A DNA stretch of 64,000 nucleotides from Candidatus Dadabacteria bacterium. Its GTDB lineage: Bacteria > Desulfobacterota_D > UBA1144 > Nemesobacterales > JADFKM01. The notes under the pieces are model-generated. The model was not told where the DNA came from, did not search any database, and saw only the letters and a program-made list of their open reading frames with translations. Shown one piece after another: positions 45,915 to 49,343 of this stretch. Location: the NCBI GenBank assembly GCA_022564935.1, contig JADFKM010000002.1, forward strand, positions 5,852 to 69,851. Reading direction: 5' to 3'. Position 1 is the first letter of the stretch. Each line of letters begins with the position of its first letter. Made by a program: the position numbers and the translations under genes.

Positions 45915-46046
45915 AATAACCCGCTCGATAAAACGGCATCAACAATCTTACAGACTAAAATATAATGGGAAAAACGCGTTTAATACAAAATCAACGGCAC
46001 GCAATGCTGACAAACAATCTGAAAATTACTGCCGGATAGATCTTGC

Positions 46047-46100
46047 GGAGCCATATCTGCAATTAAAACAGGTGGAGCCATATCTACAATTAAAACAGGT
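46047..46100. repeat. Tandem 27-base direct repeat (two copies)
   Basis: Two head-to-tail copies, 46047-46073 and 46074-46100, differ at a single base. The unit begins GGAGCCATATCT and ends AAAACAGGT. It looks like a recent slippage or duplication event. Confidence 0.9.
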
Positions 46101-46317
46101 ATGGTAGCCGTAAAAGCTTAAACCTTGCCAGTTCCTGTTTAATGACCATGATATCTCTCTCGACAGCGGTTTTTAAAATTAACAAGACCGATATAGCGGC
46201 CTTACTTCTCTGGCTCTAGCCCGGATTCGCAAGTAGGTCTAAATTCTCATAAAAACAACTATCCGCTTCGTTGTAAGACACTGTTCAAACCTCCGGTTTT
46301 TTAAGTATAGGGTAGCA

Positions 46318-46332
46318 CTTCGCTAAGCGAAG
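46318..46332. repeat. Perfect 15-base palindrome
   Basis: CTTCGCT and AGCGAAG arms around a single A. No U-tract follows at once on either strand, so a terminator role is doubtful. It could be an operator or a relic. Confidence 0.5.
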
Positions 46333-46568
46333 GCAAAGCATCCAATGGCACTACAGGGACAAAACCCCTCGCGTTCTCTGGTTTGTATATGCCCCCGTAG
46401 CTTTAGTCGATCTATCTCCCGAGTTGCTCATGGGCATCTATGAAAGTCGGGGTTTGCGACTTTATTTTAGGATTAATTTCAGGGCAGGCGCAAGACTATA
46501 CCTTAAAATTTACTCTGCTAATTTTTTTCAGCTTACAATGAACTTAACAATGTGTGACAGAATCCTCA

Positions 46569-47132
46569 TCAAGTGCTTTCCTGAATCACCTCACTCAGAA
46601 GCCGGGTCAGCGCCTCCTCCTTATACCTGATGCTCTTAAGGATCTTTTTCGCCCTTGCTGATAGGCGCCGATAGCCCCAGAGTGCCCGCCGCTTGGTCTC
46701 CTGCCAACCCTCACGCCGGGAATAGAACGTTAGGTTGACGTCGAAATAGGAGATGCCGTCCGCATCCTTGAGCAAATCGGAGCGGGGGTCGCCGCCCTTC
46801 TCATGGTAGGTTACCAGACGGCAAGCCTCTTCCACGACGCTCCGCTCCACGCCGCACGCAACCAGAATCGGGCGCAGTATTTCAGCCCCATTGCGGGCAT
46901 GGGCGGCCTTGAAAGCGTCGTAATCGTAAAAGTCCGCACGTTTTACCTTGGTCTCCTCGATTGCCCGGTCAATGTCATGAGCCAGCGCCGCAATCTGCAA
47001 TGCATAGTCGGCATTCGGGTCTAGGTGTAACAGCCATGCCAGCGTGTTATCAGCATGACGCGGGTCCTCAGGCACCCGGGAGCCAGCGATTATCAAACGA
47101 ATTTTCTGTTTTGCACAATCGATGCTATCCAT
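46569..47132 (-). CDS. HD-domain-like metal-dependent hydrolase
   Basis: A 187-residue protein. The HD-superfamily ligands can be placed: H26 (PRHADNT), H52-D53 (LAHDIDRA), H110 (TYHEKGGD) and D123/D125 (LKDADGISYF). Function unknown; HD proteins hydrolyse phosphate esters or nucleotides, and this one has some DUF4202-like flavour. The ATG at 47132 lies inside the end of the upstream fusion gene (8-base overlap), which implies coupled translation and perhaps a shared pathway. A longer start 17 codons upstream adds unrelated residues. Confidence 0.75.
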   Translation of the reverse strand: MDSIDCAKQKIRLIIAGSRVPEDPRHADNTLAWLLHLDPNADYALQIAALAHDIDRAIEETKVKRADFYDYDAFKAAHARNGAEILRPILVACGVERSVVEEACRLVTYHEKGGDPRSDLLKDADGISYFDVNLTFYSRREGWQETKRRALWGYRRLSARAKKILKSIRYKEEALTRLLSEVIQEST

Positions 47133-48453
47133 CGCGGGTAATAATGACCCTACGCAGGGTCTCGAGATTCGTGACCACGGCAATCAGGGCCAGCACGGGC
47201 AGTACCAGATTTGTCACCGCGCCTAGAAAGATAAGAAACACACGCACATCCCGGCCCAGGCGCAACTCGGCCCTGCCTCCGGCTGCGATGCGCGAGCGCA
47301 TCAGGCTGTCGTACTTGTCCGCCGTGTAACTCAGCATGAACGAGCCGATGATGGCCATAAAACCGGTGAGCAAGATCCAGCCGTTCGCTTCGGTAGCCAG
47401 GATGTGCCAAGTCAAGCCAAGCAGAAGAAAGGCGTCAGCGTAGCGGTCCAGCACCGCGTCGAACCAGCCGCCATAGTCGCTGCACTGATACTTGAGCCTG
47501 GCCACTTCGCCATCGGAACCGTCAATGATGGATGCGAACTGCGCTAGTACACCACCCAGGAGCAGGGCGAGATACCCGCCCATTGCAAACAGTCCTGCAG
47601 CAAGTAGGGAGCACAGAAAAGAGAACAGGGAAATTTGATTGGGGGTGATATTATATTTGGCCAAATGGCGGGAAAACCTCAAGGAGATGGGGCGGTTTAA
47701 ATAACGCGATACAGGCCCGTCATTAAACTTGTTACGGAGATTATCTAGGAGTGCCTTTTCCGCCTTCCTGAAGGTCACAGAATCATCTACATCTATCCAG
47801 AAACCGCTCGTATAGATCGCTTTAGCTTGTCCCTCGGCGGCCAAATTCCGTACCGCCCTGGACAAGGTGGTGCAGCCGTTTTTTTCTTTACATCGCTCCA
47901 GTGCATTAAAAATGGCAGAGGAGCAGAGGAAAACACCGGTATCTAAGGCGTTGAAGTCAGTCAGTCCCTTGCCGATATCACTGATCTTCCCATCTTCCAC
48001 CTTTACGCGGGTAACTTCCTCTATAACGATGAAGGGGTTCCTGGTGTCTGCGTCGACCCCGAGTGCGATCTCCCCATCGGCCAAGGTAAACGCTAACAAC
48101 TCACGGGCAAGGGACGGATCAAAGAGGTGATCCGCCATGAGCAGCAAAAACGGCTCACTCAGATGCTCCCGCGCCGTAAACACCGAAAGACCGTTTCCTT
48201 TTTCCCAATCGTCATTAACCAGCGTCGTAATACGAATCGAAAGACGAACCGACAGCCGGTTCAAGAAATCACGAACACGGTCCCCATTGTAGCCGGTAAC
48301 CACATAAAACTCATGCACCCCTGCCTCCATGGCTGAGCGGATGACCCGTTCAATCAAGGGGACGCCCAGGATAGGAATGAGGGGTTTGCTGTCATACCTG
48401 TGCTGCAGCCGACTACCCCTACCCGCCGCGATAATCAGGCACTTGATATCCAT
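47125..48453 (-). CDS. Fused NTP transferase/CDP-alcohol phosphotransferase (IPCT-DIPPS-like)
   Basis: A 442-residue two-domain protein. Residues 1 to about 235 form a sugar-nucleotidyltransferase domain (LIIAAGRGSRL, SKPLIPILG, LLMADHLFD, VKVEDGKISDIGKGL, ALDTGVF). Residues 245-442 form a membrane CDP-alcohol phosphotransferase with the full D-x2-DG-x2-AR-x8-G-x3-D-x3-D motif from D311 to D336 and several hydrophobic helices. The same domain order and many of these strings occur in inositol-1-phosphate cytidylyltransferase/di-myo-inositol-phosphate-phosphate synthase of thermophiles such as Archaeoglobus. The product here (a soluble solute or an inositol-type lipid) is inference. A GAGGAG touches the ATG. 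Confidence 0.82.
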   Translation of the reverse strand: MDIKCLIIAAGRGSRLQHRYDSKPLIPILGVPLIERVIRSAMEAGVHEFYVVTGYNGDRVRDFLNRLSVRLSIRITTLVNDDWEKGNGLSVFTAREHLSEPFLLLMADHLFDPSLARELLAFTLADGEIALGVDADTRNPFIVIEEVTRVKVEDGKISDIGKGLTDFNALDTGVFLCSSAIFNALERCKEKNGCTTLSRAVRNLAAEGQAKAIYTSGFWIDVDDSVTFRKAEKALLDNLRNKFNDGPVSRYLNRPISLRFSRHLAKYNITPNQISLFSFLCSLLAAGLFAMGGYLALLLGGVLAQFASIIDGSDGEVARLKYQCSDYGGWFDAVLDRYADAFLLLGLTWHILATEANGWILLTGFMAIIGSFMLSYTADKYDSLMRSRIAAGGRAELRLGRDVRVFLIFLGAVTNLVLPVLALIAVVTNLETLRRVIITRDG

Positions 48454-48536: not shown

Positions 48537-49343
48537 TCAGGACTTTTCTTCCTCATTCTCAGAGCCTTCGCCGTCCTCGGACCCCTCACCCTCTTCGGTG
48601 GTTTCTTCTCCGGCATCGGCTGTAGGTGCTTGCTCTCCGACATCTTTAGCATCGGCTGGCTCGGGCTCTTCTGGAGATTCCTTGAGGGATTCCTCTTGAG
48701 GTTGCTCCGCAGCGGGAGCTTCAGCCTCGGCCGGGTCTTCTCCAGCTTCTGCATCGGGCGCGCCTTCAGCATCGATAAGCCCGAGCTCTTCGGCGGATTC
48801 TACCTTGGAGCTTTTGGCACGTTTCGGTTTTTTCTCTGAAGGCTGCTCTTCGGCCTCAGAGGCTCCCTCTTCTATCGGTGACTCCTGCGCCGAAGGCTCC
48901 GTCTCTAGAGCGGCTTCGGTTTTTTGTTCTGCCTTAGCTCCGGCTTTAGCTTTCGACCTCTTCTTCTTCTCAGGCTCGGGCTCGTACTCTTCTTCAACAA
49001 GCTTGATCAACGATATGGGGGCGTTATCACCTCTCCTGAACCCCAGTTTTACGATCCTAGTATAACCGCCCGGCCGTAATTTAAAGTGCGGAGCAATCTC
49101 TTCGAACAGCTTCTTGAGCACTTCTTTGTCCTGAATATCGGCTGCGGCCCTCCTCCTGGCATGCAGAGTTCCCTGCTTGGCAAGGGTTATAAGCTTCTCG
49201 GCGAACCTGCGCAGCTCTTTTACCTTAATGTCGGTAGAGTGTATCTTCCCAAGACGGAAAAAATCGGTGGCCATGTTCCGCAGCATAGCCCTTCGGTGTT
49301 CTGTAGTTCTGCTGAGTTTTCGTCCCGCTCTTCTGTGTCGCAT
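48537..49343 (-). CDS. rplQ: 50S ribosomal protein L17 with long acidic C-terminal tail
   Basis: Residues 1 to about 118 are a normal L17 ([20 protein letters not shown] start, [13 protein letters not shown]). The remaining 148 or so residues, from [10 protein letters not shown] on, are low-complexity and rich in Glu, Ala, Pro and Ser, ending EEEKS. Most L17 proteins stop near 120-140 residues, with modest tails in some phyla. The frame is continuous and acidic throughout, so it is not a frameshift artefact. It is the last ribosomal gene of the cluster and lies 29 bases after rpoA. Confidence 0.93.

Follow-up and report, generated by a model that had tools for sequence, protein, structure and literature searches.

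A putatively mobile IPCT-DIPPS operon with a candidate HD-type DIPP phosphatase in Dadabacteria and other bacteria and archaea

Organization of the locus

The window, that is, the whole stretch of 64,000 nucleotides analyzed here, comes from a Candidatus Dadabacteria assembly of 2.0 Mb in 104 contigs. It carries on the minus strand a bifunctional IPCT-DIPPS gene (P0001; 47125-48453; 442 aa), identified on the basis of NF041135, the solved structure PDB 4mnd and a structural model, and the gene for an HD-domain hydrolase (46569-47132, minus strand; 187 aa) that is predicted to be a DIPP phosphatase. Both genes lie where the preliminary description of this DNA had placed them, and the overlap that it had reported between the end of IPCT-DIPPS and the beginning of HD can be read in the sequence: it spans 8 nt (47125-47132, minus strand), with the stop codon TAG at 47127-47125 located within the start of the HD gene, whose ATG is at 47132. 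This overlap is predicted to couple the translation of the two genes. Upstream of IPCT-DIPPS, at a distance of 83 nt and on the same strand, the ribosomal cluster ends in an rplQ-type gene (48537-49343, minus strand), which in the window occupies the slot where most other genomes have MIPS; its product has an acidic Ala/Glu-rich tail that extends ~150 residues past the ribosomal protein L17 core. On the other side, ~650 nt without a convincing gene (45915-46568), where the G+C content falls to 0.44, separate the HD gene from an F420-type luciferase-like gene. No RNA element or RNA family match was found at the locus, this region included, and the promoter-like matches at the locus were uninformative.

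The IPCT-DIPPS protein

The 442-residue protein is matched over its full length as a fusion of an N-terminal CTP:inositol-1-phosphate cytidylyltransferase (IPCT) domain (residues 1-237; 47743-48453, minus strand; Pfam NTP_transf_3, 3e-18) with a C-terminal membrane CDP-alcohol phosphotransferase (DIPPS) domain (residues 245-442; 47128-47721, minus strand; Pfam CDP-OH_P_transf), the latter modeled as a helical membrane domain. The phosphotransferase signature, read directly from the sequence (47446-47523, minus strand), is complete, D311-G-S-D314-G-E-V-A-R-(8)-G328-W-F-D332-A-V-L-D336, and each of its signature residues is at least 95% conserved among 101 full-length relatives. Within the IPCT domain, G11-x-G13-x-R15, K23-P24, D108-H109, D221, and D223 are conserved in these 101 relatives, and G11, G13, R15, K23, D108, D221, and D223 each reach at least 95% conservation; the same applies to the arginines R401 and R404 of the RDVR acceptor-phosphate motif (RxxR). 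The preliminary description had proposed this fusion of a cytidylyltransferase-type domain with a CDP-alcohol phosphotransferase carrying the full D311-D336 motif, and every motif that it named is present.

The protein matched NCBIfam NF041135 with an E value of 1.1e-88 and 298 bits; since this misses the 580-bit cut-off of what is a Thermococcales equivalog, a cut-off exceeded by the Thermococcales-type archaeal locus L205 with a score of 663, we assign the protein to the wider IPCT-DIPPS family alone. The best solved relative by sequence is the IPCT-DIPPS of A. fulgidus (4mnd; E value 1e-54), and the AlphaFold model (pLDDT 91) matched the same structure with Z 37.9 and rmsd 2.7 over 401 aligned residues, followed by AF2299 (Z 29.7) and the inositol-1-phosphate CTP transferase of T. 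maritima (Z 28.9). The likeness to IPCT-DIPPS noted earlier is borne out, with 4mnd ranking first by sequence and by fold; the protein groups with IPCT-DIPPS and not with choline- or sugar-phosphate enzymes. Judged by its sequence, it is a full-length IPCT-DIPPS with all motifs intact.

Judged by sequence, the acceptor may also be another molecule (glycerol-3-phosphate, lipid); in Archaeoglobus, enzymes of the IPCT and CDP-alcohol phosphotransferase types act in the synthesis of glycero-phospho-inositol as well. With an acceptor other than inositol-1-phosphate, the HD protein would dephosphorylate a product that is either glycero-phospho-inositol or the head group of an inositol lipid. In favor of this possibility, a role in inositol lipids has been proposed for a cluster of the Prevotella type that combines an NTP transferase, a CDP-alcohol phosphotransferase, a HAD hydrolase, and MIPS (PMC9246714). 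We regard it as unlikely: the whole-length likeness is to the DIPP synthase 4mnd, R401 and R404 preserve the RxxR motif, an arginine of which binds inositol phosphate at its phosphate group in PIP synthases (PMC4634129), and the gene neighborhoods contain no conserved lipid gene.

The HD-domain protein

The HD protein matched the Pfam families HD (2e-6; 28.4 bits vs. a 22-bit cut-off) and DUF4202 (PF13875; 2e-16; 60.7 bits vs. a gathering cut-off of 35.1). Among 46 relatives, H26, H52, D53, H78, H110, and D125 do not vary at all, and D123 hardly varies. The metal ligands noted earlier (H26, H52-D53, H110, and D123/D125) are intact, and the invariant H78 is a ligand that had been missed. The arrangement H..HD..H..H..D is the ligand pattern of dinuclear HD enzymes, MIOX and PhnZ among them. 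The model of the protein (pLDDT 96) has an all-helical HD fold; its nearest solved folds, none of them close, are uncharacterized HD hydrolases, the pyrophosphohydrolase YpgQ, and small alarmone hydrolases. The best Foldseek match of the model was no better than 5e-3, so that the substrate is not nameable from the fold alone, and searches of solved structures with the HD sequence and its profile returned nothing useful; what sequence and fold indicate is no more than membership in the broad HD superfamily, which includes pyrophosphohydrolases, alarmone hydrolases, and phosphodiesterases.

Canonical DUF4202 proteins (L132-L161), present in 37 of 369 gammaproteobacterial genomes, have none of the six HD ligands (28 of 28 aligned; the positions are occupied by Y, Q, H, L, K/R, and A), and neither a conserved partner nor a linked IPCT-DIPPS was found in their neighborhoods. 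Since all six ligands and a conserved partner are lacking there, the IPCT-linked HD proteins are, on these alignments, a separate and metal-competent subfamily, apart from canonical DUF4202. The canonical proteins themselves appear to be a non-metal offshoot of the HD fold. Literature searches for DUF4202, for DIP in combination with HD domains, and for Dadabacteria in combination with inositol yielded nothing relevant.

Conservation of the gene set

A scan of 84,980 species genomes yielded 66 loci with close IPCT-DIPPS relatives (51-78% identity) in a wide range of bacteria, including Gammaproteobacteria, delta-type proteobacteria, Nitrospirota, Planctomycetota, Actinomycetota, Bacteroidota, Acidobacteriota, Nitrospinota, Sumerlaeota, Neomarinimicrobiota, SAR324, Aminicenantes, and others. 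Of 63 assessable loci, 59 have the HD gene directly downstream of IPCT-DIPPS, and of 60 assessable for MIPS, 49 have it directly upstream; once two duplicates are removed, the counts are 57 of 61 and 49 of 58. This operon MIPS belongs to the type found in M. tuberculosis (1gr0, 3e-114). Among archaea, the HD gene stands beside IPCT-DIPPS in all eight close loci (8/8; synthase identity 53-55%), two of which also contain MIPS within the stretch read. The HD gene is, in other words, conserved beside IPCT-DIPPS in many phyla and in archaea; the pairing emphasized in the preliminary description stands, but in most cases MIPS joins its two genes to make an operon of three.

Reading frame and co-occurrence of the two genes are likewise conserved in many genomes. 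The reading frame of HD relative to IPCT-DIPPS is the same in 66 of 72 pairs, nearly all of which overlap, and the pairwise distances of the two proteins are correlated across 68 loci (rho 0.87), a value that none of 999 permutations equaled. Among the 369 Gammaproteobacteria, 10 of the 11 genomes with a full-length IPCT-DIPPS have the HD type (Fisher p ~1e-17), and one further genome has a doubtful match to it; in the gammaproteobacterium G080, the HD gene and the synthase are found on different contigs. All 21 carrier genomes with a match contain exactly one HD copy. DUF4202/HD occurs in only four of 60 relatives of the window genome, in each case adjoining IPCT-DIPPS; of two other IPCT-DIPPS carriers among these relatives, one is cut off by a contig end and one has a HAD fusion. 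A few operons (L079, L090, L172) have no HD gene nearby. Chance pairing of IPCT-DIPPS and HD is rejected by frame, order, and co-occurrence.

Additional genes accompany some of these loci. A PfkB-family kinase gene follows the HD gene in three of them (L060, 7872-8738; L063, 5861-6727; L097, 1277-2146) and is fused in front of HD in a fourth (L054, 7435-8826); the nearest solved structure of this kinase is 3w4s/4xf6, which we take to be the myo-inositol kinase of Thermococcus, and this suggests a putative inositol kinase for salvage. Some Gammaproteobacteria (L173-L177) have an operon-type MIPS followed by a stand-alone IPCT-like protein of ~250 aa without the DIPPS domain; CDP-inositol may feed another product in these genomes.

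Inositol supply and probable lateral transfer in Dadabacteria

The source of inositol-1-phosphate that the preliminary description implied is found in the window genome, where a MIPS gene adjoins rpsI (G000:C62). Of the 57 Dadabacteria genomes searched, 52 encode elsewhere a MIPS of their own, of another type than the operon MIPS; this accounts for the absence of operon MIPS from the Dadabacteria copies (0 of 4 loci where this could be judged). Hosts that already possess a MIPS seem to take up or retain the module without it. The window genome also contains a second pair of genes (L005, 1195-3291; G000:C95), one for a nucleotidyltransferase of 258 aa and one for a protein of 437 aa that combines a degenerate N-domain with a CDP-alcohol phosphotransferase; pairs of this type are kept together in most Dadabacteria relatives. 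Together with the near-universal MIPS, this pair looks like the native inositol pathway of the class.

In the phylogenetic tree, a quick reconstruction without bootstrap based on metagenome bins whose short contigs are possibly misplaced, the Dadabacteria copies (the window, G031/G040, G045, and G008) take four separate positions among other phyla, and their genomic contexts, where readable, differ. These separate positions point to repeated transfer of the IPCT-DIPPS/HD unit into Dadabacteria, as a putative history consistent with the earlier suggestion that the pair may be acquired.

Proposed pathway and function of the HD protein

The unit is probably a horizontally acquired module for a solute of the di-myo-inositol-phosphate (DIP) type, with the HD protein as its DIPP phosphatase. 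The host MIPS would convert glucose-6-phosphate to L-myo-inositol-1-phosphate, the IPCT domain would combine inositol-1-phosphate and CTP to CDP-inositol, and the DIPPS membrane domain would join CDP-inositol with a second inositol-1-phosphate to DIPP; the HD protein, produced by coupled translation, would then strip the terminal phosphate from DIPP and release DIP, a removal that would render the pathway irreversible. From the gene set and its homologs we infer these substrates, this product, and the DIPP phosphatase role of the HD protein; the "trimming" by the HD enzyme that had been proposed earlier would be best read as removal of the terminal phosphate from DIPP.

The product of DIPPS is phosphorylated, and the missing step is therefore expected to be that of a monoester phosphatase; to our knowledge, no gene has been assigned to the DIPP phosphatase of DIP producers. 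In one locus (L039), HD is fused to the end of IPCT-DIPPS; in another (L012), a fused HAD hydrolase fills the HD position behind IPCT-DIPPS, and a HAD gene homologous to it lies 2 nt downstream of IPCT-DIPPS in the archaeal locus L196. Hadal Thaumarchaeota have an extra inositol monophosphatase near IPCT-DIPPS (PMC7265257). The fusion, the HAD substitutions, and the nearby monophosphatase together argue for a phosphatase function of the HD protein. The window genome also contains two IMPase-family genes, which could perform the last step instead of HD.

Two other functions of the HD protein were considered. As a house-cleaning or regulatory hydrolase it would cleave CDP-inositol, CTP, or pyrophosphate, or recycle DIP as a phosphodiesterase, in keeping with its nearest folds among YpgQ, alarmone hydrolases, and uncharacterized HD hydrolases; this is quite improbable, since the replacement of HD elsewhere by a fused or adjacent HAD phosphatase or an IMPase (PMC7265257) fits a monoester phosphatase, and a dedicated step is in line with the single copy per genome and with the fusion of HD to IPCT-DIPPS. 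The second possibility is a MIOX/PhnZ-like di-iron oxygenase with inositol as its substrate. The invariant H..HD..H..H..D pattern is shared with these dinuclear enzymes, and PhnZ (4mln, Z 10.0) does appear in the fold list among many HD folds; yet it is not among the best matches, and such an enzyme would destroy the operon's own substrate and leave the HAD substitution unexplained, so that we consider this function very improbable. Returning to the DIPP phosphatase, we see about an even chance that a self-contained, mobile operon of MIPS, IPCT-DIPPS, and HD phosphatase has spread DIP synthesis among inhabitants of cold and moderate marine sediments, in many bacterial phyla and in archaea, with HD as the dedicated DIPP phosphatase and hence a new activity of HD proteins.

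Habitat and significance

DIP is treated as a solute of hyperthermophiles. The bacterial carriers do not look hyperthermophilic by tRNA G+C content (57-62%) and amino-acid composition, a crude index of growth temperature. DIP genes have been reported in Thaumarchaeota of the cold deep sea (PMC7265257, PMC8397731, PMC10773090) and in marine SAR116 bacteria (PMC12262181), and their occurrence outside thermophiles is therefore not new. IPCT-DIPPS is likewise already known; what is new is that it occurs in a mobile form coupled to HD, and in many lineages whose features do not suggest hyperthermophily, and no description of an HD-linked, mobile IPCT-DIPPS operon was found in the literature. The HD gene offers a concrete candidate for the DIPP phosphatase. 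If this holds, an activity would be assigned to an unstudied HD family, and a heat-linked solute pathway would move as a whole between microbes of the deep sea and of sediments, to which DIP likely offers osmotic or pressure protection.

Comparison with known systems

The IPCT-DIPPS of A. fulgidus and Thermococcales (4mnd, NF041135) shares with the window protein the same two-domain architecture over the full length, the motifs, and the fold (Z 37.9); at ~31% identity, however, the window type forms a separate clade, and the downstream HD gene that it possesses is lacking in Thermococcales. The HD protein shares a family score with Pfam DUF4202 (PF13875; 61 bits vs. a 35-bit cut-off), whereas canonical DUF4202 proteins score >150 bits and have neither the metal ligands nor the linked IPCT-DIPPS that characterize the window HD protein. 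The operon logic resembles that of the Bacteroides inositol-lipid cluster of MIPS, PIPS, and PIP phosphatase (PMC9246714), as a synthase and a CDP-alcohol phosphotransferase combined with a dedicated phosphatase; in contrast, the Bacteroides cluster uses CDP-diacylglycerol and a PgpA-like phosphatase, without IPCT fusion or HD protein. Thaumarchaeota from deep-sea and hadal sites, with their DIP genes (PMC7265257, PMC8397731, PMC10773090), are a similar case, in that non-thermophilic marine microbes have acquired IPCT-DIPPS and have a phosphatase gene close to it; yet that phosphatase is an inositol monophosphatase and not an HD protein, and the system is archaeal, whereas the HD-coupled form extends across many bacterial phyla.
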